In this document: piece after piece, positions 19,601 to 33,550 of the stretch
Position numbering within the stretch: position 1 is the first letter of the stretch
How the letters are laid out: each line of letters opens with the position of its first letter
NCBI RefSeq assembly: GCF_002211285.1
Contig: NZ_LOKX01000035.1
Location: 186,001-250,000, forward strand
Reading direction: 5' to 3'
DNA length: 64,000 nt
DNA from: Rhizobium sp. R635
GTDB lineage: Bacteria; Pseudomonadota; Alphaproteobacteria; Rhizobiales; Rhizobiaceae
Notes under the pieces: model-generated
The model's input: only the letters and a program-made list of their open reading frames with translations
Databases searched by the model: none
Told to the model about the DNA's origin: nothing
Position numbers and translations under genes: made by a program

Positions 19601-20680
19601 TCAAGACAGGCGCCGACCGTCCTCGCCGAAAAGATGCAGCACCGCGGGATCAAGATGCAGCGGCAGGCTGTCGCCGGATTTCATCCGCTGCTGGCCGGCG
19701 AAGACGGCAATCAGCTTCTTTCCCGCCGCATCGGCATGCACGACCGTCTCGGAGCCCAATTCCTCGACGAGTGTGACGCGTGTGTCCAGCCTGCTATCGG
19801 AGCCCGCGTCGGCAAGGGTGATGTGTTGTGGCCGGATGCCGATGCTGACCCTCTCGCCGATCGGATGCACCTCCCGGGCAACAGCGGAAAGACGATGGCC
19901 GCCAACTGTTTCGACTTGCGTGAAACCGCCTTCGTGACCGGTGACCGACCCCTCCAGGAAATTCATGTGCGGCGCGCCGATGAAGCCGGCGACGAAGCGG
20001 TTCGCGGGCTTATTGTAAAGCTCCAGCGGGGTCCCCACCTGCTCGATCCTGCCGCCTCTCAGCACGACGATGCGGTTTGCAAGCGTCATCGCCTCGACCT
20101 GATCGTGAGTGACATAGATCATCGTCGCCTTCAGGCGAGCATGAAGGGCGGCGAGCTCGGCGCGCATGCTCACCCTGAGCTCTGCATCGAGATTGGACAG
20201 CGGCTCGTCGAGCAGGAAGGCATCCGGCCGGCGGACGATGGCGCGGCCGATCGCGACGCGCTGGCGCTGACCGCCGGAAAGCTGGCCCGGACGGCGCTGC
20301 AGGAAGGGTTCGATCTCCAGCATGCGCGCGGCGTCGGCAATGCGCGCCTCGATCTCGGCCTTGGCCACCTTGGTATTCTCCAAGCCGAAGGCCAGATTCT
20401 CGCGCACGCTCATATGCGGATAGAGCGCGTAGGATTGGAAGACCATGGCGAGACCGCGGTCGGCGGCGGTGATGGCGGTGACGTCCTTGCCGTCGATGAG
20501 GATGCTGCCGCCCGTCGGCTTGTCGAGACCGGCGATCAGGCGCAGCAGCGTCGATTTCCCGCAGCCGGACGGGCCGACGAAAGCGACGAATTCGCCGTCT
20601 CTTACGTCAAGCGAGACATCGCGAATGACCTCGACGGAGCCGAAATTCTTGACGATGTTCCTGAGCTCGAGCCCGCTCAT
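19601..20680 (-). CDS. Carbohydrate ABC transporter ATP-binding protein, UgpC/MsmK type
   Basis: 359 residues. ATPase domain with Walker [10 protein letters not shown], signature [15 protein letters not shown], Walker [12 protein letters not shown] and switch YVTHDQ; a C-terminal TOBE/regulatory domain starts at about 240. All catalytic residues are present. It is the last gene of a five-gene unit beginning with the 838-residue enzyme and follows the permease by 18 bases. The substrate is not identifiable from the ATPase. Confidence 0.92.
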   Translation of the reverse strand: MSGLELRNIVKNFGSVEVIRDVSLDVRDGEFVAFVGPSGCGKSTLLRLIAGLDKPTGGSILIDGKDVTAITAADRGLAMVFQSYALYPHMSVRENLAFGLENTKVAKAEIEARIADAARMLEIEPFLQRRPGQLSGGQRQRVAIGRAIVRRPDAFLLDEPLSNLDAELRVSMRAELAALHARLKATMIYVTHDQVEAMTLANRIVVLRGGRIEQVGTPLELYNKPANRFVAGFIGAPHMNFLEGSVTGHEGGFTQVETVGGHRLSAVAREVHPIGERVSIGIRPQHITLADAGSDSRLDTRVTLVEELGSETVVHADAAGKKLIAVFAGQQRMKSGDSLPLHLDPAVLHLFGEDGRRLS

Positions 20681-20698
20681 GCGCTCTCCTGTTTCATG

Positions 20699-21748
20699 TT
20701 ATTTCAGTCCGGAGCCGGCGATACCAGTCGTGATGAAGCGTTGCAGGAAGACGAAGATCAGCACGACGGGGATCATCGAAACGACGGTCATGGCGAGGAT
20801 GTAGTGCCATTGGACGTTGAGTTCGCCGGCATAGACGTTGAGTCCGACCTGCAGCGTGTAGAGTTCCTTGCGCGAGAGCACGATCAGCGGCCAGAGGAAA
20901 TCATTCCAGCGCCAGACGACCGAGAAGATCGCCAGCACCGCCAGCGCCGGCGCCGACAGCGGCAGGATGATGCGCCAGTAGATCTGCCATTCGCTCGCCT
21001 TGTCCATGCGCGCGGCGTCGATCAGCTCGTCGGGGATCGTCAGCATGTATTGGCGCAGCAGGAAGACGCCTGTCGGCGTGGCGACCGTCGGCAGGATGAC
21101 GCCCCAGAGGCTGTCGAAGAGGTTCAGCGTGCCGATGACGGAGTAGAGCGGCACGACGATCACCGAAAGCGGCACCATCAGCGTCGCCAGGATCATCAGC
21201 ATGACGGCAGTACGGCCGGGAAACTGGTATTTCGACAGCGCGAAGGCGGCCATGGAATTGACGAGCAACGTAATGGCCGTCGCCACCACGGTTACGAAGA
21301 CGGAGTTGCGCAGGAACTGGAAGAAATCGAAACGCCGGAAGGGTTCGGTGTAGTTGCCCCCGGCGAATTCGACCTCACGCACCGGCGTGCGGTCCTTGAT
21401 GTTGACCTTGACGATTTCGCCCGGCTGTTTCGGATCGACCATCTGACCCATGATGCCGATCCGGCGGACTTCGGCGAGCACCCGGGTGCTGCCGTCCGGC
21501 ATCGTGACATTATAGAGCGGCAGCGGCTTGTCGTAGCCGGGCACCACGGCCTGTTGGGTGACATAAGGCAGGAAGGACGGCGGGAACTCGGCAAGGGCCG
21601 CCGGCGTCTTGAATGAGGAGAAGACCAGCCAGATGGCCGGGCCGAACATCAGGAAGACACCCGAGATCAGCCAGATCCAGGTAACGACATCGGTCCAGTG
21701 CCAGCCGCGGCCGCGGCGACGCAGCAGGAAGGCGCCGACAGCGCTCAT
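20699..21748 (-). CDS. Carbohydrate ABC transporter permease, MalG/UgpE type with enlarged periplasmic loop
   Basis: 349 residues, compared with about 280 for most relatives. The first membrane helix (about 22-42) is followed by roughly 90 residues of soluble loop (LYNVTMPDGSTRVLAEVRRI and EIVKVNIKDRTPVREVEF) before the remaining five helices. The cytoplasmic EAA loop is recognisable as IPDELIDAARMDKASEWQIY. The extra loop should face the periplasm and could contact the binding protein. Its start overlaps the other permease by ATGA. Confidence 0.9.
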   Translation of the reverse strand: MSAVGAFLLRRRGRGWHWTDVVTWIWLISGVFLMFGPAIWLVFSSFKTPAALAEFPPSFLPYVTQQAVVPGYDKPLPLYNVTMPDGSTRVLAEVRRIGIMGQMVDPKQPGEIVKVNIKDRTPVREVEFAGGNYTEPFRRFDFFQFLRNSVFVTVVATAITLLVNSMAAFALSKYQFPGRTAVMLMILATLMVPLSVIVVPLYSVIGTLNLFDSLWGVILPTVATPTGVFLLRQYMLTIPDELIDAARMDKASEWQIYWRIILPLSAPALAVLAIFSVVWRWNDFLWPLIVLSRKELYTLQVGLNVYAGELNVQWHYILAMTVVSMIPVVLIFVFLQRFITTGIAGSGLK

Positions 21749-22782
21749 TGGCGTGTTCCCTTCTTCTCGTTGCGGTTGCTGACCCCGAGCTGGATCAGCG
21801 TCAGTACGACGAGCACGAGGCCCATCAGGATCGAGGCGGCCGATGCGAGCCCCGGATTGCGCAACGAACTCGCAAAGCCGGTCTCGTAAATATACTGGGT
21901 GATGTACATGGTGCTGGTGCCCGGCCCGCCGCCGGTGAGCACGAAGACCTCATCGAATATCTGCACGGCGCGGATCAGTGCCAGCACCAGGACGACGATG
22001 AGGTTCGGCATCAGTAGCGGCAGGGTGATGCGCCGGAAAATCCGGGTGGGGCTCGCCTTGTCCATCGCGGCCGCCTCGTAGAGATCTTTAGGGATCGCCT
22101 GCAGGCCGGCGAGCAGGATCAGCGCGTAGAAGCCCATATGCGCCCAGACCGAGACGAAGACGGCGAAGAAGAAGGCCCAGAAGCGATCGCTGAGCCAGGA
22201 GAACGGTTCGAAGCCGAAGGGGCTCAGTGCATAGTTCAGCAGACCTTCGCGCTGGAGGATCCATTTCCAGATCAGGCCAACGACGACGGGCGACAGCAGC
22301 ACCGGGAAGAAGAAGACGGCGCGCCAGAAGCCGCGATTGGAAAGCTCGCGATTGAGGATCAGCGCCGTCGTGAGCGCCGTGATCAGCATCGCGGTAACTT
22401 GAAAGACGACGAAGACGGCGGTGTTGCGCACGGCCGCCCAGAAGGTATCGGCCGCGCAGGTCGCCGGGTCGAGATAGCTGCCGCAATCGAAGAGGAGGCG
22501 GTACTGGTCGGCGCCGACATAGGTCCGGCTCTGAAGGAAGATGGCGCTGCCGCTCGTCGTCGAATAGATGAAATTGATGACCAGCGGCAGCAGCACGAAG
22601 ACCGTGAAAATCAGCATGTTGGGCGCCAGGAAGACGCCCGCCATGCCGTTCAGCCCGGTCAGCTTCTGCCAGGCGCGCATGGGAATATCGACGATCCCCA
22701 TGAGAAGCCGGACAGGCGCATGGAGCGCCTGCCGCAGACCGGCTTTCGCCGGCGGTTCTGGGGAAACAGTCTTCGGAGCCAT
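21745..22782 (-). CDS. Carbohydrate ABC transporter permease, MalF/UgpA type
   Basis: 345 residues from MAPKTVSPEPPAKAG. An N-terminal cytoplasmic tail of about 55 residues leads into six membrane helices; the EAA loop is IPKDLYEAAAMDKASPTRIFR near residue 245. The start lies 11 bases after the binding-protein stop and has GGAAGA upstream; a 46-residue longer frame overlaps the binding-protein gene and was discarded. It pairs with the MalG-type permease encoded next. Confidence 0.9.
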   Translation of the reverse strand: MAPKTVSPEPPAKAGLRQALHAPVRLLMGIVDIPMRAWQKLTGLNGMAGVFLAPNMLIFTVFVLLPLVINFIYSTTSGSAIFLQSRTYVGADQYRLLFDCGSYLDPATCAADTFWAAVRNTAVFVVFQVTAMLITALTTALILNRELSNRGFWRAVFFFPVLLSPVVVGLIWKWILQREGLLNYALSPFGFEPFSWLSDRFWAFFFAVFVSVWAHMGFYALILLAGLQAIPKDLYEAAAMDKASPTRIFRRITLPLLMPNLIVVLVLALIRAVQIFDEVFVLTGGGPGTSTMYITQYIYETGFASSLRNPGLASAASILMGLVLVVLTLIQLGVSNRNEKKGTRQ

Positions 22783-22793
22783 CTGTTCTTCCG

Positions 22794-24053
22794 TCAGTTG
22801 GCGGCGACCTTGGCCTTGATGTCCTCGTCGATGCGCGCATAGGCGTCGTCGAGCTTCATTTCGCCGGCGATCACCTGGCTGATGCGGGCAACGATGGCGC
22901 TGTAGTACGCATCCGACCACTTCCAGCCCGGCAGCTTCATCGCGGGCGCCGCCGTCTGGCCGGCCGCTGCGACGAAGGCCGTCAGCGCCGCTTTCACATG
23001 CGGATTGTCGGTCTTGAAGTTCACCTGGCCGGCAGCCACCCCCTTATGCGCGGGAATGAACAGGCTGCGCTCGGCGAACTCCTTCTGCACGTCGGCACTT
23101 GCCAGATAATCCATCACCTTGGCGACATCCTTGGGGTTCTTGGTGTACTTGACGGCGACGAGACCGGCGCCGCCCTGCATGCCGGAGCAGGCAACCGTGC
23201 CGCAGGGGCTACCGGTCATGACCCAATCGAAATTGTCGCCGATCTTCTGGGCGAAGCCGGAAATCTGCCAACTGCCCGAATAAAAATAGGCAAGCCCTCC
23301 ATTGATGAAGTCTTCGGCCGCGGAGCGATAGGTGGTGCCGGCGGCACTCACCCAGACGTCCTTGTTGACGGTGCCGTCCTCGTTCCATTTGACGAAGCGG
23401 CTGAGGAAATCCTTGGCGCCCTGGTCGATCGGTGCGGGCTTGCCATCGGCGGCGATATAGTTGGCGCCGTAGGAGATGTTCGGGCCGGAGACGCGGTGGC
23501 CGGAGCGGTCGATCGCCATGGCGAAGACCTTCTGACTGTCGGCGACCTTCTTGGCCGCCGCCGCCCAATCGTCCCAGGTTGCCTTCGGTCCGGGAATTTC
23601 AACGCCGGCCTGATCGAACAGCGTCTTGTTGACGAAGCCGCCGGTCAGCGTCAGCTGCGTCATGAAGCCGGTGATGGCGTTCGAGCCGTCAGGACGCATC
23701 CAGTCGGCCTGGGCGCCGAAATTGTCGTCCCAGTATTTCGCGTCGGTGAGGTAAGGGCGAAGATCGAGCCAATGCTGCGCCGGCGCCTTCAGATTGGTGA
23801 CGCGGGCGATATCAGGCCCCTTCCCGGCTTCCAGCTGCACCGGCAGCTGTTCCTTGACGACGTCATAGGAGACTTCGTCGAGGATGACGTTGATGTCGGG
23901 ATTGGCCTTTGAGAAGCGCGACAGCAGGTCCTTGATGACCTCGCCTTCGCCGCCGTCGGAATACCACATGATGCGCACGTCGCCGGCATGAGCTGCTACG
24001 GAACTCAAGAGAACAGCAGCGAAAGCCGCGCCGATCGATTTCATTCTGGCCAT
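22794..24053 (-). CDS. Carbohydrate ABC transporter substrate-binding protein
   Basis: 419 residues, family 1 solute-binding protein. The signal peptide MARMKSIGAAFAAVLLSSVA ends at AHA-GDVRIMW. Recognisable features are NPDINVILDEVSYDVVKEQL, GKGPDIARVTNL and a late AGLVAVKYTKNPKDVAKVMDY. GGAGGAGGAGAAA before the ATG fixes the start. It is 65 bases downstream of the 838-residue gene. The ligand is presumably the saccharide that enzyme attacks (inference from operon position). Confidence 0.92.
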   Translation of the reverse strand: MARMKSIGAAFAAVLLSSVAAHAGDVRIMWYSDGGEGEVIKDLLSRFSKANPDINVILDEVSYDVVKEQLPVQLEAGKGPDIARVTNLKAPAQHWLDLRPYLTDAKYWDDNFGAQADWMRPDGSNAITGFMTQLTLTGGFVNKTLFDQAGVEIPGPKATWDDWAAAAKKVADSQKVFAMAIDRSGHRVSGPNISYGANYIAADGKPAPIDQGAKDFLSRFVKWNEDGTVNKDVWVSAAGTTYRSAAEDFINGGLAYFYSGSWQISGFAQKIGDNFDWVMTGSPCGTVACSGMQGGAGLVAVKYTKNPKDVAKVMDYLASADVQKEFAERSLFIPAHKGVAAGQVNFKTDNPHVKAALTAFVAAAGQTAAPAMKLPGWKWSDAYYSAIVARISQVIAGEMKLDDAYARIDEDIKAKVAAN

Positions 24054-24118
24054 TTTCTCCTCCTCCTGACCGATGAATTGCTGCGCCCGGCCGGTCCTCC
24101 ACCTGCCGGACACTTCGT

Positions 24119-26635
24119 CTACGAGGCCGCGCGCCGAGGCTGCCTGCCCGGTATCGTGAGATGTACCGCGTCTCCCCGCACCGACCAGTCCGAAGGACTG
24201 AGAATGCGGCCTTCGGCGCGCACGGTGCCGTCTTCTTCGAAAACGACCTGGCCATAATCGGGATCGACGACGATCAATGCGCCCTCGTCATCCCGGCGGG
24301 CAGAGAGCCCGGCAAAACGCGCCTGCATGCCGTCAAGGCCGCCTTCCCGCTTGAGATCGGAGAGGCGCACGATCCAGCGGCTCTTCCGACCGGCCAGCCG
24401 CAGTTCCATATCCGTCGTCGGGCCTTCCTTGACGGGCGTCAGCATTCCGCTGCCGATGAGCAGCGCCAGGCCGCTACCAGAGCGGGCGAGTGCCAAGTTG
24501 CCATCAACCACGCTGTCGTCGAAGGCTTCCACCGGGAACCAGGCATGGGTGAAATCCGGCTGACCCTCATGGATGTCGAAATCGAGGATCGCGAGATCAC
24601 GATACTGATGTACGCGCGGAAGCGTTCCGCAGCCGCCCCAGAAGCTTGGCCGGCCGTAGCCGAACTGGATGGTTTCGCCGGGATGGTTGATCCAGATCTG
24701 CGCTTCCGGCCGCGTGCCCAAGCGCAGGTGCAGCACCGTCTCCTGGTAGCCCCAGGCGCCGGGGCGATAATGCGCGATGGTGCCGAGTGCGGTGTCGCGC
24801 GTCTTGTAGTGATAAAGGGCGGCGAAACGGTTCTCGCCCTGGGAAAAGGTCCATTCCTGCGCATCATCGGCGTCATGGGCGGCGATTGCCGCAAGCTCTT
24901 CGGGAAAATGCAGGCCATGATCACGGATGCAGACGGCAAGCTGTGGCAAGGCATGGACGCGCCGGCCGTACCAGCCGCGCCCCCAGAGCAGGCGGGCGAT
25001 GGCCGACAGTTCGACCGAACGGCCGGGACGCAGCGTATGTTCGTAGGAGCGGCCCTGGCTGCCGGTCAGCATGCCATGATGGGCCGAGCGGGCGACGATC
25101 TCCATCAGGCGAACGATGCTGGCGCTCGCGCGGCTGCGGATCGCCTCATCCGGCGCACAGGCGGCGAGCGCCGTCAGGCCCTTGAGGTCGATCGGGAAAT
25201 AGGGAACGGAATTCCACTCGGCCATTTCCCAGCACTCGAAATGATCGAGCCAGGCGCGAACGCGCTCTTCGCCGACCTTCATCTGTTCGGCGCCCGTGCG
25301 GCCGGACCTGATGAAGACGGCCTCGGGGAAAAGCCTGCCACCGAGATAGGCGGCGGTATGGAAGAGAAGCGCGTGGTTTTCCGAAAAATACCACTGAACG
25401 TCGTTGCCCGGCTCGTCCATCCAATAGCGGTAACGGAGGACGGCGTGTTCAATCCTCTCCCGCAGCGCCGGCGACAGCAGATCGCTCCAGCGCGTATAGG
25501 CAAACAGCAGCGGCACCAGCACGAAATCGGCGCAGTCGTGGCAATCCTCGATGACGGGCAGCATGGCCGCTATCATCGCCTCGGTCTCCTCGCCGCCCTG
25601 CCCCAGCGCCAGGCGCGCAAAGGCGCAGACGGTATCGGGCTCGGAATGCGCAGCAACCTTCGCAAGCGCCTCGGCGACGCGGTCCTCCAGCGCAGCGGGC
25701 GCTTCCCCCTGCGGATGACAGATCTCGACGCCGAGCGTGCGGCCGACGGAAAACTCGCCGGTTTTGAAGGCGATGCGGAAGTGACGGAAATCGGCGGGCA
25801 TACGCGCCGAGGTGCCAAGCTCAAGCTTGGTTGCACCCTTCTCCAGCGCGAAATCATAGGCGAAGCGTTCGACCGACATGAAGTCGCCTTCGATCTCGAC
25901 ATGGCAGGTCAGCGCCACCGGCAGCGGCCTGGGAAAAAGGATCGTCACGTCCTCGCCGAGATAGGCGGTGCGGTCGAAGCGCATGCCTTCGAGGATCGCC
26001 TCCAGCACATCCGCGTCACCGGCGGCGGTCGGAACGGGAAGCGATGTTTCGACCTCAGGTCCTTCGAGATAATCCAGCTGGAAATAGAAACGGGCGTCAC
26101 GCTCGGCGAGATCGTCGAAATAGACGCGGATCTCGTTGAGGCCGGCGGACAGCTCGACCTCGAATATCTGCTGGGCTTCGAGATTGCGCTCGTATGGCGC
26201 CATGAAACCCTTTTCGCTGCCGTTGACGAAAAGGATGGCGCCGCCGCAGGTCGACAGGCGCAGCTTGGCGGGGCCAGCCGATCGGGCATCGAGGAAGGTG
26301 CGCGCCCAGCAGCCGATGCGCGTCGGGCGAAACCAGAAGCCGGAGAGATCGACACGTGGCGACGCGAAGGGAAGCCACCAGCGGATAGCCTCGAAGTCGG
26401 CTGAAGGTTGCGGCCGCCGGCTGGAGAAAGCTTTCTTGAATTCAGTGCGGCAGGGATATTCATGCGGAATGAAATTCTTCGTCTTGGTGACGAAGAAGAA
26501 GGGATCCATCCTGCCTTCCATCGGGCGGTCGGCGACATCGTACCGCTCCTGCCATAGGCTTGAGAGCTGCCAATAGACGATCGGGGTTTGCTTCGCGGTT
26601 GTGCGACGAAGATAGGATTGCTGTTCGGCGGCCAT
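24119..26635 (-). CDS. Large uncharacterised protein with lyase/glycosidase-like three-domain layout
   Basis: 838 residues, no signal peptide or membrane segment, so probably cytoplasmic. I recognise no named family with certainty. An N-terminal region at about 90-195 looks like a beta-sandwich (RLSTCGGAILFVNG, GLNEIRVYFDDLAERDARFY). The middle, about 310-560, is helical and carries VQWYFSENHALLFHTAAYLG (414-433), EMAEWNSVPYF (470-480) and GSQGRSYEHTL (525-535). The C-terminal half, about 600-810, is beta-rich with INHPGETIQFG. This order resembles alpha/alpha-toroid polysaccharide lyases, where Asn, His and Tyr act in catalysis; N420, H421 and Y531 are candidates. It is the first gene before an importer and opposite a LacI gene, so it likely processes an imported oligosaccharide. 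Confidence 0.75.
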   Translation of the reverse strand: MAAEQQSYLRRTTAKQTPIVYWQLSSLWQERYDVADRPMEGRMDPFFFVTKTKNFIPHEYPCRTEFKKAFSSRRPQPSADFEAIRWWLPFASPRVDLSGFWFRPTRIGCWARTFLDARSAGPAKLRLSTCGGAILFVNGSEKGFMAPYERNLEAQQIFEVELSAGLNEIRVYFDDLAERDARFYFQLDYLEGPEVETSLPVPTAAGDADVLEAILEGMRFDRTAYLGEDVTILFPRPLPVALTCHVEIEGDFMSVERFAYDFALEKGATKLELGTSARMPADFRHFRIAFKTGEFSVGRTLGVEICHPQGEAPAALEDRVAEALAKVAAHSEPDTVCAFARLALGQGGEETEAMIAAMLPVIEDCHDCADFVLVPLLFAYTRWSDLLSPALRERIEHAVLRYRYWMDEPGNDVQWYFSENHALLFHTAAYLGGRLFPEAVFIRSGRTGAEQMKVGEERVRAWLDHFECWEMAEWNSVPYFPIDLKGLTALAACAPDEAIRSRASASIVRLMEIVARSAHHGMLTGSQGRSYEHTLRPGRSVELSAIARLLWGRGWYGRRVHALPQLAVCIRDHGLHFPEELAAIAAHDADDAQEWTFSQGENRFAALYHYKTRDTALGTIAHYRPGAWGYQETVLHLRLGTRPEAQIWINHPGETIQFGYGRPSFWGGCGTLPRVHQYRDLAILDFDIHEGQPDFTHAWFPVEAFDDSVVDGNLALARSGSGLALLIGSGMLTPVKEGPTTDMELRLAGRKSRWIVRLSDLKREGGLDGMQARFAGLSARRDDEGALIVVDPDYGQVVFEEDGTVRAEGRILSPSDWSVRGDAVHLTIPGRQPRRAAS

Positions 26636-26800
26636 GCTTCAGCCCGCTCTGGAACAGCTGGAGCATGTGACGCTTTTCGGCATCATGCTCGAACCTTGAG
26701 ACGCCGGGCGCAAAGCCGACGCATGGACTGCCCGTCAAGCCGCATCTTCAGCCTCCCTGCTTTGTTGCGGACTCCTCGCGACAATTGTGCATAGGCATTC

Positions 26801-26813
26801 CATTTGCGCAATG
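26801..26813. promoter_or_regulatory. Operator-like palindrome between the divergent enzyme and lacI genes
   Basis: CATTTGCGCAATG contains the perfect palindrome TTGCGCAA at 26804-26811, 43 bases before the LacI-type start. LacI-family operators usually have a central CG inside such a palindrome. The 219-base region also holds TTGTGCATAGG and TTTTTGCATAAC, possible related half sites. Confidence 0.4.
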
Positions 26814-26854
26814 TGAAAGATTTTTGCATAACAGAGAGGGAGCGAGGAGATGTC

Positions 26855-27910
26855 ATGGCAGCGGAGCAGAAAAAAGGCAGGCGCACGCGCCTCGACGATA
26901 TTGCCGCCAGATGCGGCGTATCGATCAGCACCGTGTCGCGGGCGCTGGCCGGCGAAAAGGGCGTGAGGCCCGAGATCCGCAAGCTAGTGCTGGAAACGGC
27001 AAGCGAGGTCAGCTACGCCCTGCCGGCGAGCGTCGCGGGCAAAAAGGTGATGCTCGTCGCCTCCGGTGCGGCGATGATCGATTATGTTCGTAACCAGTTC
27101 ACGCTCTACGTGCTCGAAGGACTGAATGCCCGCGCAGCCGCCCTCGGCATCGAGATGGCGATGCGCCCCATCGCCGACCAGGCGGATGAAGCGCGCGTCA
27201 TCGCCGAGATGCGGGACGATGCGAGCTTCGGCGGCATGCTGATCCTGACCGTCGACGAGGAGGATATGCTTGCCGCGGCCGCCGATCTCGGAAAGCCCGT
27301 CGTGCTCGTCAACAGCGACGATCCCTATATGCGGCTTTCGAGTGTGACGCCCTGCAACCGTTCGGCCGCCTTCATCGCCGCGGAGCGGCTGATCGAGGCG
27401 GGGCATCAACGCATCTTGTTCATGCTGCGGCCGGGACGGCGGACGATCGAGCGACGCCTGGAGGGCTGGCGCGATGCCCTGCTGCATCACGGGCTGACGG
27501 CCGATGCCGATCTGGTGCTCGAAGTCGACGACTGGCTGCCGGAACTCGGCGCCGAGGCCGTCACCCGGCTCATCAGCGAGAAGGGCCTGTTCTTCACAGC
27601 CATTCTGACGGCAGGCGACAGTCTCGCCAACGGCGCCGTGCGCGGATTGCAGGCGATGGGTTATGCCGTGCCCCAAGACATTTCCGTCATGGGCATAGAC
27701 GATCTGCCGCAATCGGCTTTTCTCAATCCGCCGCTCTCGACCGTTCACATTCCGATGCGCGAACTCGGCGCCACCGCGCTCGATCTGCTGCGCGACATGA
27801 TGCTCGGCCTTGCGACGCCGCGGCGGCGCGTCGAGCTTTCCTGCCATCTCGTCGAAAGGGGCAGCGTTGCTGCCGTCAGGCGCCTGCAGGAGGTTATGCC
27901 GCGATCATGA
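26855..27910 (+). CDS. LacI family transcriptional regulator
   Basis: 351 residues. The helix-turn-helix is at about 12-35 (RLDDIAARCGVSISTVSRAL), followed by a hinge region and a periplasmic-binding-like sugar-sensing domain ending DISVMGIDDLPQSAFLNPPL. AGGAGATGTC before the ATG fixes the start; the frame is open 17 codons further upstream without a better site. It is divergent from the 838-residue enzyme and its importer, and is the probable controller of both. The inducer is unknown. Confidence 0.92.
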   Translation: MAAEQKKGRRTRLDDIAARCGVSISTVSRALAGEKGVRPEIRKLVLETASEVSYALPASVAGKKVMLVASGAAMIDYVRNQFTLYVLEGLNARAAALGIEMAMRPIADQADEARVIAEMRDDASFGGMLILTVDEEDMLAAAADLGKPVVLVNSDDPYMRLSSVTPCNRSAAFIAAERLIEAGHQRILFMLRPGRRTIERRLEGWRDALLHHGLTADADLVLEVDDWLPELGAEAVTRLISEKGLFFTAILTAGDSLANGAVRGLQAMGYAVPQDISVMGIDDLPQSAFLNPPLSTVHIPMRELGATALDLLRDMMLGLATPRRRVELSCHLVERGSVAAVRRLQEVMPRS

Positions 27911-28434
27911 AATTCCTGGCAATATCCGGAAGCGCCCGCCGGGCCTCCACCAACACCGCCATGCTCTATGCTTTTCAGTCGGTTGCGGGCGCGACGCATC
28001 AGGTTTCGGTCTATGACCGCTTGGGAGAACTTCCCGTCTTTTCGCCCGACTTGGAGCAGGAACCTCCGCCTGAAGTGGTGGCCTTTGCGAACGCGATCGC
28101 GGATGCCGACGGGCTCATCTTGGCAAGCCCCGAATATATCAGGTCTATTCCCGGCGGACTGAAGAACGCCATCGACTGGCTCGTCTCCCGCAACGAAGTG
28201 ATCGGCAAACCGATCGTGCTTGCGCACGCGTCGCATCGCGGCGACGACATGCTGCACCAGCTTCGCACCGTTCTCGCCACACTGAGCGATCGCTTCAACG
28301 AAAAACTCTTCCTTCGCCTCCATCTGATGAAGCTTTCACCGGATGAGATTGGCGAGCAGCTTTCCCAGCCTCAGCGTCAGGACGAGATGCGCCGTTTCCT
28401 CGACGCTTTCGCAAGCTATTGCAGAACACCCTGA
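27907..28434 (+). CDS. NADPH-dependent FMN reductase family protein
   Basis: 175 residues, flavodoxin-like fold. The phosphate loop is SGSARRASTNTAM at residues 7-19 and the flavin-ring motif is PEYIRSIPGGLKNAIDWL at about 78-95. Relatives reduce FMN, quinones or chromate with NAD(P)H. The ATGA overlap with the LacI gene makes a two-gene transcript likely. A role in the saccharide module is suggested only by this linkage. The stop is directly adjacent to that of the convergent ATPase gene. Confidence 0.87.
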   Translation: MKFLAISGSARRASTNTAMLYAFQSVAGATHQVSVYDRLGELPVFSPDLEQEPPPEVVAFANAIADADGLILASPEYIRSIPGGLKNAIDWLVSRNEVIGKPIVLAHASHRGDDMLHQLRTVLATLSDRFNEKLFLRLHLMKLSPDEIGEQLSQPQRQDEMRRFLDAFASYCRTP

Positions 28435-29178
28435 TCAAGCTTCCATGAAGCTCGCTTCGAACAGCTCTCGCGCATAGGCATCATGCGTGATGCCGGCCTG
28501 CAGATCTTCCTTCGTGAGTTCATCCACGAAGCCGCCATCCTTCATGATCAGTACCCGGTCGCACATATGGGCGATCACAGCGAGATCGTGGCTGACGAGC
28601 AGATAGGTCAGTCCCTTCTCTTCGCGTTGATCGGCAAGCAGGTTCAGGATTTCGGCCTGGACGGAAACGTCGAGCGCCGATGTCGGTTCGTCGAGCAGCA
28701 GGATCGGCGGCGACAGGATGAGTGCCCGGGCGATCGCCACGCGCTGCCTCTGGCCGCCGGAAAGCTCGTGCGGAAAACGACTTGCAAAGCTTGCAGGAAG
28801 CCCCACCTGGATCAATGCCTTTTCGACCTTGGACCAGATATCGGAATGTCCCATGGCGCGCAGCGGCTCGGCCAGTGCGGTGCCGATACGATGGCGAGGA
28901 TGCAGAGACCCGTAGGGGTCCTGAAACACCATCTGGGCTGAGGTCAGTTCCTCGCGGGAGCGCTTCTTTCCGATCGGTTTTCCGCCGAGCTCGATCCGGC
29001 CCGTCCAACCACTTTCCATCCCGGCGAGGCAACGCAGCACGGTCGATTTACCGCATCCGGATTCACCGACGATGCCGAGTGTTTCGCCAGGATTGACCTG
29101 AAAGCTGATGCCCCTGACGACATGGTTCCTGTTCTTGCCTGAGGCGAAGACGACATCGAGGTCCCGCACGTTGATCAT
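28435..29178 (-). CDS. Dipeptide/oligopeptide-family ABC transporter ATP-binding protein (DppF/OppF position)
   Basis: 247 residues with Walker A GESGCGKST, signature [15 protein letters not shown] and Walker B ILLLDEPTSALD. QMVFQDPYGSLHPRHRI near residue 85 is the characteristic Q-loop of the peptide/nickel ATPase class. It is shorter than OppF because the C-terminal oligopeptide extension is missing. The start overlaps the other ATPase gene by ATGA. It is the last gene of the operon. Confidence 0.9.
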   Translation of the reverse strand: MINVRDLDVVFASGKNRNHVVRGISFQVNPGETLGIVGESGCGKSTVLRCLAGMESGWTGRIELGGKPIGKKRSREELTSAQMVFQDPYGSLHPRHRIGTALAEPLRAMGHSDIWSKVEKALIQVGLPASFASRFPHELSGGQRQRVAIARALILSPPILLLDEPTSALDVSVQAEILNLLADQREEKGLTYLLVSHDLAVIAHMCDRVLIMKDGGFVDELTKEDLQAGITHDAYARELFEASFMEA

Positions 29179-30020
29179 TGCGCCGTCTCCAGATCGAGTT
29201 TCGCCCTGTCGAGAACCGCAAGCCGGCGAACCGGGTTCTTCGGGTCGGGCAGCGCTGATATCAGCCCGCGGGTATAGGGATGGCGAGCCTCTTCCAGGCT
29301 GGTCAGGGTTTCCACGATCTTGCCAGCATACATGACGATGATGCGCTCGCAGAAGGCGGCAACCATGCGGATGTCGTGGCTGATCAGGAGCAGGCCCGAA
29401 TTGTTCTCCCGCACCAGTTCGTCGAGCAGCAGGAGCACATCCTTCCGTACGCTGACATCGAGCGCGGAGGTCGGCTCGTCGGCGATGACGAGCTTCGGCC
29501 GCGCCAGCAGCATCATCGCGATCATCACACGCTGGCCCATGCCGCCTGAAATCTGGTGGGGATAAAGCGCCATGACCCGCTCCGGATCGCTGATCCGCAC
29601 GCGCTCGAGCATGGCGCGGACAGCATCCTGCGCCGGCTTGCCGCGAAGGCCGAGGTGAAGGCGTGCGGCCTCGGCGATCTGCTTGCCGATCGAGAGCACC
29701 GGATTCAGGGAATAGCGCGGATCCTGCATGATCAGCGCGATATCCTTGCCGCGAAGCGCGCCCATCTGACGCTCGGTCTTCGAGAGAAGCGAACTGCCTG
29801 TCAGATCCAGACGCTCGGCAGAAACCACGGCGGCCGGCGGCAGAAGGCGCATGACGGCGCGGCCGGTCGTCGATTTTCCGGAGCCGGATTCGCCGACGAT
29901 GCCGACACGTTCTCGTCCGACGTCGAAACTGACATTGGACACGGCGGGGACCGCGCCTCGCCCGAAACGGACGCTCAAGTCCTTGACTGACAGAACGGGC
30001 TGGAGATCACGATCTTGCAT
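29175..30020 (-). CDS. Dipeptide/oligopeptide-family ABC transporter ATP-binding protein (DppD/OppD position)
   Basis: 281 residues: Walker [28 protein letters not shown] as Q-loop, signature ISGGMGQRVMIAMML, Walker B LVIADEPTSALD and a C-terminal HPYTRGLISALPDP, the OppD/DppD hallmark. The start MQDRDLQPVLSVKDL overlaps the permease gene by 14 bases; an earlier start adds 17 residues inside that gene. It couples ATP hydrolysis to the import described for this operon. Confidence 0.9.
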   Translation of the reverse strand: MQDRDLQPVLSVKDLSVRFGRGAVPAVSNVSFDVGRERVGIVGESGSGKSTTGRAVMRLLPPAAVVSAERLDLTGSSLLSKTERQMGALRGKDIALIMQDPRYSLNPVLSIGKQIAEAARLHLGLRGKPAQDAVRAMLERVRISDPERVMALYPHQISGGMGQRVMIAMMLLARPKLVIADEPTSALDVSVRKDVLLLLDELVRENNSGLLLISHDIRMVAAFCERIIVMYAGKIVETLTSLEEARHPYTRGLISALPDPKNPVRRLAVLDRAKLDLETAQ

Positions 30021-30909
30021 GGCGGGGATCCAGAATGTCGCGCAGAGCATCTCCGGCGATGTTGAAGGCAAGGCTCGTCAGCAGGATGGCGATACCCGGC
30101 ATGACGGCGACCCACCAGTAATCGAGCATGAACTTGCGGCCGTTGGAGATCATCGCGCCCCATTCCGGCGCGGGCGGCTGAGCGCCGAGGCCGAGAAAGC
30201 CGAGCGAGGCGGCGGTCAGGATGATGCCCGCCATGTTCAGCGTCAGGCGCACGATGACCGAGGGAATGCACATGGGTGCGATATAGAGGAGAAGAATGCG
30301 GATCGGCGACGCGCCATAAAGGCGGGCAGCGACGACATAATCGGCATTTCTGACGACAAGCGCCTCCGCGCGGGCAAGCCTTGCGATCGGCGGCCATGCC
30401 GTGAGCGAGATGGCGATGATCGCCGTGCCCAGCCCCGCGCCGAGTGCTGCGGCAAAGGCGAGCGCCAGGATCAGCGACGGGAAGGAAAGAACGATATCCG
30501 TGGTGCGCATCAGAAAGGCGTCGGTATTGCCGCCGAAGAAGCCGGCGACGACGCCGATCAGCAGCCCGATCGGCCCGACGATCAGGGAAACCGCAAGCAC
30601 GGTCTGGATGGTGATGCGCGTACCGAAGATGAGGCGGCTCAGAATATCCCGCCCGAATTCGTCCGTACCCGCCAGGTGAGCGAGGCTCGGAGGCTGCAAG
30701 GCATCGCCAAGCGCCTGTATGGTCGGATCATAGGGCGCCAGAAGCGGTGCGAAGATCGCGACGAAGCAGAGAATGCCGAGGACGGCGAAGCCGGCAAGGC
30801 CGAGCGGTTCGTCGGCCAGTTTGCGGCCGGCGCGGGCAAAGGAAGCGGCAACCCGGCTCGGCACGCTTGGAGGACGGATCTGAATCTCGCTGTGAACGGC
30901 ATCGCTCAT
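30007..30909 (-). CDS. Dipeptide-family ABC transporter permease (DppC type)
   Basis: 300 residues, six membrane helices. An N-terminal soluble tail is followed by PYDPTIQALGDALQPPS and HLAGTDEFGRDILSRLIFGTR, the typical DppC entry sequence, and by the EAA loop LVVRNADYVVAARLYGASP. It forms the channel with the DppB-type subunit. The start overlaps that gene by ATGA. Confidence 0.92.
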   Translation of the reverse strand: MSDAVHSEIQIRPPSVPSRVAASFARAGRKLADEPLGLAGFAVLGILCFVAIFAPLLAPYDPTIQALGDALQPPSLAHLAGTDEFGRDILSRLIFGTRITIQTVLAVSLIVGPIGLLIGVVAGFFGGNTDAFLMRTTDIVLSFPSLILALAFAAALGAGLGTAIIAISLTAWPPIARLARAEALVVRNADYVVAARLYGASPIRILLLYIAPMCIPSVIVRLTLNMAGIILTAASLGFLGLGAQPPAPEWGAMISNGRKFMLDYWWVAVMPGIAILLTSLAFNIAGDALRDILDPRHARS

Positions 30910-31934
30910 CGGGCCACCTCCCTCATGCGCGGATCAAGGACGGCGTAGGCGACGTCGGCCAGGAAGTTCAGGAACATGAAGATGAATCCCACGATGATGG
31001 TGGCTGCGACGATGGCGTTCATATCGCCGATCATCAGCGCGTTGGTCATATATTGGCCGATGCCCGGCCAGGAGAAGACGATCTCGGTGACGACGGCGCC
31101 TTCGAGAAGCCCGCCATAGGAAATGGCAAGGATGGTGATCAGCTGCACCGCGATATTCGGCAGGACGTGGCGCAGAACAGTGCCGGTCGGGCTGACACCC
31201 TTGGCGCGGGCGGCAATCACATAATCCTGGCTCAACTGCTCCAGCGTGAAGCTGCGGGTCATGCGCGTGATATAGGCCATGGCGGCATAGGCAAGGATGC
31301 AGGCCGGCAGAATGATATGGCCAAGCGCATTCCAGAAGATCTCGGTCTCGCCCTGCAGGAGGCTGTCGACCAACAGCAGCCCGGTCTGCGGCGTGACGAG
31401 CCCTTCGTAAAACACGTCGACCCTGCCCGGCCCGCCGACCCAGTTCAGGCTGGCATAGAAGATGACGAGCCCGACGATGCCGAACCAGAAAACCGGGATC
31501 GAATGACCGACGAGGGCAACCACGCGGGCGATCTTGTCGATCAAGCTGTCGCGAAACAGGGCCGCGACCAGGCCAAGCGGGACACCGACGAAGGTCGAAA
31601 TTATCACGGCAAGCGTGGCGAGTTCGAACGTCGCCGGGAAGGCCTGAGCGAGGTCCGAAGAGACGGGATTGCCGGTGAGCACGGCCGTGCCGAAATCACC
31701 ATGGGCCAATCCGTTCAGATAGAGGAAAAACTGCTGGTAGATTGGCAGATCGAGGCCGAGGCGCGTGCGCATCGCCGCATAGGCTGCGGGATCGGCGAGC
31801 TCGCCGACGATCGCGCCGACGGGATCAGTGGGCAGGACGCGGCCGATCACGAAGGTGACGCAGAGGAGGATGAACAGGCTGACCAGCAAATGCGCCAGGC
31901 GTCGGCCAAATTCGGCTACAGAGAGTTCCTTCAT
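30906..31934 (-). CDS. Dipeptide-family ABC transporter permease (DppB type)
   Basis: 342 residues, six membrane helices. The N-terminus FGRRLAHLLVSLFILLCVTF and RLGLDLPIYQQFFLYLNGL are characteristic of DppB. The EAA loop reads LSQDYVIAARAKGVSPTGTV and the end is VLDPRM. It follows the binding-protein gene by 20 bases. Confidence 0.92.
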   Translation of the reverse strand: MKELSVAEFGRRLAHLLVSLFILLCVTFVIGRVLPTDPVGAIVGELADPAAYAAMRTRLGLDLPIYQQFFLYLNGLAHGDFGTAVLTGNPVSSDLAQAFPATFELATLAVIISTFVGVPLGLVAALFRDSLIDKIARVVALVGHSIPVFWFGIVGLVIFYASLNWVGGPGRVDVFYEGLVTPQTGLLLVDSLLQGETEIFWNALGHIILPACILAYAAMAYITRMTRSFTLEQLSQDYVIAARAKGVSPTGTVLRHVLPNIAVQLITILAISYGGLLEGAVVTEIVFSWPGIGQYMTNALMIGDMNAIVAATIIVGFIFMFLNFLADVAYAVLDPRMREVAR

Positions 31935-31954
31935 GATCGGCTGCCTCGGGAGTA

Positions 31955-33550
31955 TTACTGGGCTTCAGACTTGGTGACGTTCTCGAGACGCGTCAGCTGG
32001 GTCGGATGCCCCACATATCCTTGCACCTTGCTCGACAGGACGATCGGCTCGAAGCGTTCGAACATCGGAAGCACTGCCGGGTTCTGCTCGACGAACATCT
32101 TCTGCATTTCGACATAGAGCTCGCCGCGCTTCTTGGCGTCCGGCTCCATCGATGCCTTTGCCGTCAGGGCCGTGAGTTCCGGAATGTCCCAGGCCGAGCG
32201 CCAGACGAAGTTGCCGGCATTGTTGGCTTCCTTGGAATTGTCCGGATTGGACGAGAACTGCTCCATCGAACCGAGGACATTCGGCATGTAGGCGCTGGTC
32301 TGCGGGATCAGCAGATCGAAATCCCGGGCGCGGTGGGCGGCGATGATTTCCGAGCCGTTGCCCTGCTGGATATCGATCTTGATGCCAACCTGGGCGAGCG
32401 ATGCCTGGATGGCCGTGGCGAGATCGATGCGCGGCGTCTGGGCGATGGTCTTCAGCGACAGCGAAAAGCCGTCTTTGAACCCTGCCTCGGCCAACAGCTG
32501 CTTGGATTTTTCGACGTCGAGATGCCAATCGGGATTGGGGATCGCATATTCGAAATTCTCCGGAACGGGCACGTTTCTCGCCCGCCCGTAAGGACCCATG
32601 ATCGTCTTTTCGATGCCCTTGTAGTCGATACCGTAGGCAATGGCCTCGCGAACCTTCGGGTTGGAGAGGTACTTGTTGCCGGCATTCATCGACAGCACGT
32701 AAAAGCCGCCGGTGGGAATCCGCTGGATCGTAAAGCCCTTCTTATCGTTGAAGGTCGCAAGATCGGCTGCCGTCAGCGCGCTGGCAATATCGATGTCACC
32801 GCGGTCGAGCATCAATCGCTCGACCTGGCTCTCCGGAACGTGGCGAACGATGACGCGCTTCATTTTCGGAGCGCCGGCCACATAATCCTTGTTGGCGTCG
32901 AGGATCACGAGTTCGTTCGGAGACCAGCGATTGAGGGTGAACGGACCGGAGCCGGCCGAGTGCGTGCGCATCCAGGCATTGCCCCAGTCGTTGTCGGCAA
33001 CATGCTTCTGCACTTCGACACTGTCGACCACGCTGGTGGTCGAGGCCGCGAGCCGGTAGAGCAGCATCTCGGCAGTCACCTGGCCGGAAAAATCGATGCG
33101 AACCGTCTTGTCGTCGACCGCCGTGACGAGCTTGTCGACGTTGTTCTTGTCATAGCCGACGCGCTTGAGGTTTGCGGCAGCAGCCTGGTCGAGCTTCAGG
33201 AGCCGTCCCAGCGAATAGACGACATCCTTCGATGTCACCGGATTGCCGGAGGCGAAATTGGCCTCGCGCAGCGTGAAGGTGATGCCCTTGTCGTCAACCT
33301 TCCAGCTTTCCGCCAGTTGCGGCACGATCTCGCCGTCCGGCGTACTGTTGACCAGCCGATCGTAGAGATTCGACATGATCTCGACCGCTTTTCCCTCCGT
33401 CGCCTGATGCGGATCGAGAGACAGAACCTGTGCCAGCGATGTCCCGATCACCAGCTGGTCCTTCGGTGTGGCGGCATAGAGCTGAGGCGCTGCGATCGTC
33501 AGCGCGCCGATGACGGCACCGACGAACAGGCCCTTGGAAAAATGCTTCAT
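31955..33550 (-). CDS. Dipeptide-family (family 5) ABC transporter substrate-binding protein
   Basis: 531 residues with a signal peptide ending near LYA-ATPKDQ. Typical family-5 stretches are SLDPHQATEGKAVEIMSNLY, PQLAESWKVDDKGITFTLRE and NPKVREAIAYGIDYKGI. Family 5 proteins carry peptides, nickel, opines and also oligosaccharides. Divergence from a FadR-type regulator followed by uronate/aldarate enzymes suggests a sugar-acid or oligouronide ligand; this is inference. It is the first gene of the operon. Confidence 0.92.
   Translation of the reverse strand: MKHFSKGLFVGAVIGALTIAAPQLYAATPKDQLVIGTSLAQVLSLDPHQATEGKAVEIMSNLYDRLVNSTPDGEIVPQLAESWKVDDKGITFTLREANFASGNPVTSKDVVYSLGRLLKLDQAAAANLKRVGYDKNNVDKLVTAVDDKTVRIDFSGQVTAEMLLYRLAASTTSVVDSVEVQKHVADNDWGNAWMRTHSAGSGPFTLNRWSPNELVILDANKDYVAGAPKMKRVIVRHVPESQVERLMLDRGDIDIASALTAADLATFNDKKGFTIQRIPTGGFYVLSMNAGNKYLSNPKVREAIAYGIDYKGIEKTIMGPYGRARNVPVPENFEYAIPNPDWHLDVEKSKQLLAEAGFKDGFSLSLKTIAQTPRIDLATAIQASLAQVGIKIDIQQGNGSEIIAAHRARDFDLLIPQTSAYMPNVLGSMEQFSSNPDNSKEANNAGNFVWRSAWDIPELTALTAKASMEPDAKKRGELYVEMQKMFVEQNPAVLPMFERFEPIVLSSKVQGYVGHPTQLTRLENVTKSEAQ

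Follow-up and report, generated by a model that had tools for sequence, protein, structure and literature searches.

A candidate intracellular uronate lyase, probably of a new toroid-type family, encoded with a carbohydrate importer in Rhizobium sp. R635

The locus and the family of its first gene

The DNA analysed here (the window) is a stretch of 64,000 nucleotides from the genome of Rhizobium sp. R635. Its subject is a minus-strand operon in which the gene for an 838-residue protein is followed by those of a complete carbohydrate ATP-binding cassette (ABC) importer, with the gene of a LacI-family regulator transcribed divergently. This layout had been described in an initial annotation made by reading the sequence, and both the open reading frames and the Pfam and NCBIfam matches agree with it. 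We argue below that the first gene of the operon probably encodes an intracellular lyase acting on uronate-containing oligosaccharides. The features, in window coordinates, are as follows.

24119..26635, minus strand: candidate uronate lyase of 838 amino acids (group A), operon gene 1, predicted to be intracellular; from homologue search and models
24881..25690, minus strand: part of the lyase gene coding for the predicted (alpha/alpha) toroid, residues ~316-585; from the secondary structure of the model
25373..25378, minus strand: N420-H421 codons (SENH motif), candidate carboxylate neutraliser and catalytic pair; invariant in 18/18 homologues, codons checked
25199..25201, minus strand: Y479 codon, candidate catalytic tyrosine, +59 from N420; invariant in 18/18, codon checked
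24683..24685, minus strand: H651 codon (NHPGE) in the C-terminal beta-sandwich, candidate catalytic histidine by inferred role, +231 from N420; invariant in 18/18, codon checked
25043..25045, minus strand: Y531 codon (GRSY), candidate of the initial annotation; invariant in 18/18, low model confidence
22794..24113, minus strand: carbohydrate ABC substrate-binding protein, probable ATG at 24053; PF01547 (SBP_bac_1)
21745..22920, minus strand: ABC permease 1, probable ATG at 22782; PF00528 (BPD_transp_1)
20699..21748, minus strand: ABC permease 2; PF00528 (BPD_transp_1)
19601..20680, minus strand: UgpC-type ABC ATPase; PRK11650, 475.8 bits against a cut-off of 432
26803..26816, minus strand: operator-like element TCACATTGCGCAAA (also written TTGCGCAA) in the divergent promoter region
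26804..27910, plus strand: LacI-family regulator, probable ATG at 26855; PF00356 and PF13377
27907..28434, plus strand: NADPH-dependent FMN reductase, a neighbour judged to lie outside the module; PF03358 (FMN_red)

No Pfam or NCBIfam model matched the 838-residue protein above its cut-off, and a phmmer search of Protein Data Bank (PDB) sequences returned nothing at E<=10. A profile built from 18 diverse, hand-picked homologues retrieved three unrelated PDB chains only, with a best E of 0.3, and the heparinase II/III-like domain Hepar_II_III_C (PF07940) was detected in 0 of the 18 at E<=1. Its sequence could be tied to none of the families in the libraries searched, so the protein probably represents a new family, relative to Pfam, NCBIfam and PDB sequences, of a known kind, the toroid uronate lyases. 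A literature search with general terms and partial coverage returned no title or abstract start describing such a lyase family, which may nevertheless already have a name. The N-terminus, judged by eye, has no hydrophobic stretch resembling a signal peptide, and the protein is therefore presumably cytoplasmic. The initial annotation had likewise seen neither a signal peptide nor a nameable family, and no confident match to a non-carbohydrate family emerged from the sequence and fold searches.

The open reading frame is not a chance one, since relatives are encoded in 239 stretches of a one-genome-per-species contig collection and 47 of 297 genomes match in a family-level sample (9 of 398 in a phylum-level sample, the source genome being counted in both). 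In the annotated records examined, relatives are labelled hypothetical. Locus counts given below rest on the best 80 of the 239 relatives. Twenty-seven of these come from Rhizobium of the leguminosarum/etli type and are ~88-92% identical to the window protein, the closest named matches among those listed being R. pisi and R. vallis (92%); the other 53, at ~61-63% identity, include Neorhizobium, Ensifer, Shinella, Mesorhizobium and Phyllobacterium. Homologues at 48-53% identity occur in Pseudosulfitobacter and Salipiger (49%) and in three more genomes, of which two lie outside the class. A paralogue (group B), 33-34% identical, is encoded in the same genome at C32:235451-237646, and group B members are also carried by plasmids of rhizobia, pRL12 and p42f among them.

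The archaeon Haladaptatus encodes a 661-residue homologue (tblastn E of 2e-24; L098:11791-13776, plus strand) without most of the N-terminal part and in a different gene context, where it is surrounded by numerous genes for Gfo/Idh/MocA oxidoreductases and one for a heparinase II/III. As a separate observation, an ice nucleation repeat protein is encoded near the group A locus of genome G178 (L162:8213-9265, plus strand).

Gene neighbourhoods of the orthologues

Neighbouring genes were sought by tblastn with queries from Shinella, pRL12, Pseudosulfitobacter, Thioclava and the window, and were counted at 45% identity or more and half coverage within 9 kb of the lyase gene. Clustering of open reading frames was noisy, with antisense frames among them, and contributes to no count. 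A comparison of neighbourhoods had been advised when the locus was first annotated. Outside the leguminosarum-type clade a GH105 gene, annotated 'GH88', is present in 53 of 53 loci and kduI in 52 of 53 (L073 lacks it). The same loci carry a LacI gene (53/53), a binding protein gene (53), permease genes (52 and 51) and an ATPase gene (50), some contigs coming to an end, and at lower frequency kduD (21/53) and an esterase-like gene (18/53). The usual order is a divergent LacI gene, then GH105, kduI, lyase, binding protein, permeases, ATPase and at times kduD. In Pseudosulfitobacter, Salipiger and two further genomes (L104 and L105) a tripartite ATP-independent periplasmic (TRAP) transporter replaces the ABC importer, and GH105, kduI and kduD are kept.

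The 'GH88' partners compared, two genes from Shinella and pRL12, match the GH105 structures 3qwt (putative), 3pmm and 4xuv at E<=6.9e-69, against E of 1.2e-9 and 4.4e-9 for 5noa, which is named family 88; on this sequence comparison they belong to GH105. The presence of such neighbours, with kduI, can be understood only when 4,5-unsaturated uronosyl ends are provided by some enzyme; among the conserved genes of the set, that of the 838-residue protein is the only one to which no other role is assigned. This gene context is stronger evidence than the fold searches described below.

The 27 leguminosarum-type loci take the form seen in the window. GH105, kduI and kduD were each found in 0 of 27, and no match to GH105, GH28, kduI or kduD appeared even at E<=1e-5 and any identity, three of the loci (L004, L013 and L015) covering only ~1.4 kb upstream. 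A LacI gene lies directly beside the lyase gene in 27/27, and genes for the binding protein and the two permeases occur in 27/27 and one for the ATPase in 26/27 (the contig of L015 ends). Permease 2 of the window is 78-83% identical to permeases of GH105/kduI operons, and the window substrate-binding protein and LacI regulator are 70.5% and 65.5% identical, respectively, to those of the Shinella GH105/kduI operon. The window operon looks like the same regulatory unit as the GH105/kduI form from which two genes were lost; we favour loss over gain because GH105 and kduI are present in more distant relatives.

Elsewhere in the source genome there is one strong Glyco_hydro_88 match (333 bits), beside the group B gene on C32, and one weak match (67 bits), and a kduI-kduD pair is located at C23:226327-227708, its members having 46% and 63% identity with their Shinella counterparts. 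The missing steps could therefore be supplied in trans, and the GH105 enzyme encoded beside the paralogue, together with the separate kduI-kduD pair, presumably provides these steps. By hand count in the family-level sample, group B is present in 4/4 genomes whose group A gene is of the close form vs. 6/35 others with group A, a comparison in which the four are close relatives and so do not make an independent test. The two operon forms also offer a case in which pathway steps may have moved from an operon to supply in trans.

Group B genes stand beside GH105 genes, with GH28 added in rhizobia (pRL12 and p42f), and in Thioclava kduI-kduD are also present, adjoining rhamnose catabolism genes. 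Further observations concern the surroundings of this paralogue. A ROK gene lies near the group B operon of pRL12. Just upstream of another group B operon, a DUF2264 protein is encoded (L110:3989-5710, plus strand) together with kduI, DUF624 and ABC importer genes, an association that suggests a pectin-related role for DUF2264. In the source genome, C32:206000-220000 (L153) encodes a Hepar_II_III_C protein (an open reading frame of 596 amino acids), a weak Glyco_hydro_88 match and a MalK-type ATPase, and is perhaps a further uronate-oligosaccharide module.

The operator-like element of the window was followed in its 13-base form, TCAGATTGCGCAA. With at most 2 mismatches it was found in 20/20 sampled distant loci and 4/4 sampled close loci, exact copies being present in 14 and 3 of them, respectively; among random 550-base stretches 7/400 contained it at the same tolerance and none exactly, a control that somewhat flatters the element because the motif was chosen after the promoters of the window, L001, L006 and Shinella had been viewed. 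The putative operator is common to both operon forms and has a second site in the genome, at C16:69664. In Pseudosulfitobacter and Salipiger the best match has 3 mismatches, a value equalled or bettered by 63/400 control stretches. No sharing of the element with group B was found, the best match there having 4 mismatches. The divergent promoter of group B (L108:9192-9382 and L094:11763-11952) contains, by eye, another palindrome, ATGAAAA(C/T)ATTTTCAT, in duplicate, and the paralogous operon may therefore answer to another regulator.

The FMN reductase gene that the initial annotation had joined to the LacI gene as part of the module is indeed arranged as described, and the LacI gene is retained. 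The reductase was rejected as a partner because it recurs in 7/27 close loci and 0/53 others, which makes it a local neighbour. An oxidoreductase encoded beside the Pseudosulfitobacter lyase gave no BLAST match to it. Past the reductase gene (window 28435-33550, minus strand) lies a second ABC transporter operon, with genes for two ATPases, two permeases and an SBP_bac_5 protein, of which one ATPase and the SBP_bac_5 protein were confirmed; we do not link it to the lyase finding.

Predicted fold and candidate catalytic residues

An AlphaFold2 model of the full protein, computed from the window protein and 44 orthologues (45 sequences in all), had a mean pLDDT of 79.4 and a pTM of 0.80, and residues 308-838 modelled alone from 43 sequences reached a mean pLDDT of 82.6. 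As read from the listed secondary-structure elements, the model consists of a beta-sandwich (~105-201), a second sandwich (~229-306), a helical toroid spanning 316-585 and, at the C-terminus, a further beta-sandwich (592-826). The succession of a toroid and an antiparallel beta-sandwich, by which the fold class is defined, is thus seen in the predicted model, with moderate match scores.

When residues 308-838 were searched with Foldseek, 12 of the 681 matches at E<=10 had E<=0.001: six Alg17c chains of PL17 (4ojz, 4ok2, 4ok4 and 4nei), three Atu3025 chains of PL15 (3a0o and 3afl), GAGase II (PL35, 8khv), heparinase III (PL12, 5jmd) and human dermatan sulfate epimerase 1 (DSE1, 6hzn). Row 13, at E 4.5e-3, was unrelated. 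VIA-align with the same residues gave Z values up to 11.2, reached with PL35 8khw (6.5 Å over 404 residues), and Z 10.2 for PL17 4nei (5.4 Å over 426). With the full model, the first Foldseek row was the PL15 exo-heparinase 6lja, and the rows after it are for the most part GH2 enzymes, which match the N-terminal domain. The order of beta-sandwich, helical toroid and beta-rich C-terminus, which had first suggested a likeness to toroid lyases, is reproduced by the model, and the likeness is supported by Foldseek, where 11 of the 12 chains are lyases. Because the scores are moderate, we claim the fold class and not membership of one family.

An alignment of the 18 homologues has 43 invariant columns, which include one Asn (N420), two Tyr (Y479 and Y531) and the His residues H421, H426, H651 and H697. 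In Table 4 of PMC12088678, families PL12, PL15, PL17, PL21, PL35 and PL39 have Asn or His, then Tyr, then His, and the spacings that we computed from that table for the six are +53 to +57 for Tyr and +184 to +220 for His. Tyr is at +59 in PL8 (1RWA) and +63 in PL23, and His precedes Tyr in both (same table); an adjacent Asn-His is given there for PL15 exoHep and PL39. Counted from N420, Y479 lies at +59, H651 at +231 and Y531 at +111, and these spacings suggest N420/H421, Y479 and H651 as the catalytic candidates rather than Y531. N420, H421 and Y531 had been put forward in the initial annotation; the first two stay on as candidates, and Y531 was set aside, on its spacing alone, in favour of Y479, whose spacing is closer to those of published toroid lyases. 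The full model is weaker around N420, Y479 and Y531, and the 308-838 model is somewhat better there, except at Y531.

Proposed function and comparison with known systems

We consider it probable, with good though incomplete confidence, that the protein is an intracellular beta-eliminating polysaccharide lyase, unnamed in the libraries searched, that feeds GH105, KduI and KduD. From the observed neighbourhoods, conservation, predicted fold class and invariant residues we infer its chemistry and substrate. The ABC importer would take up a uronate-containing oligosaccharide, and the lyase would then abstract the proton at C5 from one of its uronosyl residues and break the bond at O4 by beta-elimination, leaving a 4,5-unsaturated uronosyl end. 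In this reaction N420/H421 would neutralise the carboxylate, with Y479 and H651 as base and acid. The GH105 hydrolase would free the unsaturated uronate, and KduI and KduD would convert it to 2-keto-3-deoxygluconate. That an imported oligosaccharide is cut inside the cell by an unnamed lyase of toroid type had been proposed at the outset, and the fold searches, the lack of a family match in the libraries searched and, with more weight, the GH105/kduI neighbours support it.

The substrate, perhaps pectic, would most likely be a pectic, rhamnogalacturonan-like or arabinogalactan-type oligosaccharide. Pectin or rhamnogalacturonan is suggested by the GH28 gene of group B and by the GH105 class, and rhamnogalacturonan is a guess from these two. 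Another possibility is arabinogalactan side chains that terminate in rhamnosyl-glucuronate. No rhamnosidase is present among the annotated genes of two Shinella stretches, the only ones in which one was sought.

Several observations weigh against a lyase. The source genome has GH105 and kduI outside the operon, and one more distant locus, L103, has GH105, kduD and kduI and none of the ABC or TRAP genes sought. The operator-like element is missing from the group B promoter and from the region upstream of kduI (5 mismatches), both values being usual in the control. The scores of the fold matches are only moderate, with TM by query of 0.34-0.47 and Z of about 10-11, and function does not follow from a fold; the active-site loops, moreover, are modelled with low confidence. 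Y479 at +59 and H651 at +231 fall just beyond the spacings of PL12, PL15, PL17, PL21, PL35 and PL39 in the published table, and label permutation yields the pattern in 4.9% of 200,000 trials when the ranges are widened to include the candidate's own, so the spacing match is suggestive only. No PDB relative was found by profile search. Finally, hhalign of the 18-homologue alignment against 11 oligoalginate lyase-like proteins gave a probability of 0.1% and E 0.64 (6 of the 11 were scanned, all matching the oligoalginate lyase model, one weakly, and 1 of the 11 was compared with the PDB and is PL17). A low-threshold local hhalign alignment (probability 0.14%, not significant) places N420-H421 over the N-H pair of PL17 and P478-Y479 over its P-Y, an overlay that we treat as unproven because of the score; the global mode gave no alignment.

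A toroid-fold oligosaccharide dehydratase, which would eliminate water or another small C4 substituent and ready the ends for GH105 with the chain uncut, would create the same downstream need for GH105. There is precedent in P29_PDnc, an ulvan oligosaccharide dehydratase, earlier called a lyase, that removes water from a saturated non-reducing-end uronate (PMC8511951). In the same description, the substitutions D248N, R230E and K303I (as printed) abolish the activity of P29_PDnc and Y306F keeps it, whereas the candidate Asn/His/Tyr/His set of the window protein resembles that of the toroid lyases. On this published account the two proteins would be alike in making unsaturated ends for GH105 and unlike in key residues; we keep a dehydratase as a main rival and give it a small chance. 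If it were one, it would be a further type of enzyme that readies saturated uronate ends for GH105 inside soil and root bacteria, with key residues different from those of the ulvan dehydratase.

It is similarly improbable that the protein is a glycoside hydrolase of alpha/alpha-toroid fold, one that would shorten the oligosaccharide and leave GH105 to work on ends produced by other lyases outside the cell. Many hydrolases contain alpha/alpha barrels, and the fold searches also retrieved GH116 and cellobiose phosphorylase (VIA-align) and GH9 and GH146 (Foldseek); the N-terminal domain is similar to domains found in GH2 enzymes, and with E473, D407 and D483 invariant an acid pair is possible from the sequence. 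However, the matches of the catalytic part at E<=0.001 are all lyases or DSE1, GH116 and the phosphorylase reach Z 8.8 over 224-235 residues, below most lyase rows (above a few), and E is no better than about 0.05 for GH9 and GH146. A uronyl C5-epimerase related in type to dermatan sulfate epimerase has the same fold and shares its first chemical step with the lyases, and DSE1 is among the 12 best Foldseek matches (VIA-align Z 10.5, 5.6 Å over 450 residues), but an epimerase would not account for neighbours such as GH105 and kduI, whose enzymes require an unsaturated product, and is very unlikely. Hydrolase and epimerase both account for the neighbours less well than a lyase.

Proof of lyase activity would likely add a lyase family, explain the cargo of the importer and point to a plant oligosaccharide eaten by root bacteria. 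Rhamnose use has been linked to nodule competition in rhizobia (PMC9025865).

Among known enzymes, the PL17 and PL15 oligoalginate lyases (Alg17c and Atu3025, the latter exotype according to its PDB title) and the PL15 exo-heparinase resemble the candidate lyase in the predicted toroid and beta-sandwich and perhaps in an Asn/His-Tyr-His set. The candidate differs from them in having no PDB sequence match, no PL17 profile match and no Hepar_II_III_C domain, and in adding a GH2-like N-terminal domain and a second predicted sandwich. The glycosaminoglycan and alginate lyases of PL35, PL12, PL21, PL8 and PL39 are alike in overall fold class and are among the top VIA-align matches; here too a PDB sequence match is lacking, and the gene context is GH105 (GH28 for the paralogue) and not one of glycosaminoglycan use. 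The PL26 rhamnogalacturonan exolyases and the PL27 and PL42 rhamnosyl-glucuronate lyases make unsaturated uronosyl products that are removed by GH105, and are possible functional analogues; the candidate had no significant Pfam or PDB sequence match in general searches, none of which was aimed at these families. At the level of the pathway, the closest parallel is the use of pectin oligosaccharides by way of a Tog importer, oligogalacturonate lyase, YteR (GH105) and KduI-KduD. It has in common with the proposed pathway ABC import, intracellular depolymerisation and KduI-KduD (PMC12838403); in the proposed one, the place of oligogalacturonate lyase would be filled by a large protein of another kind.

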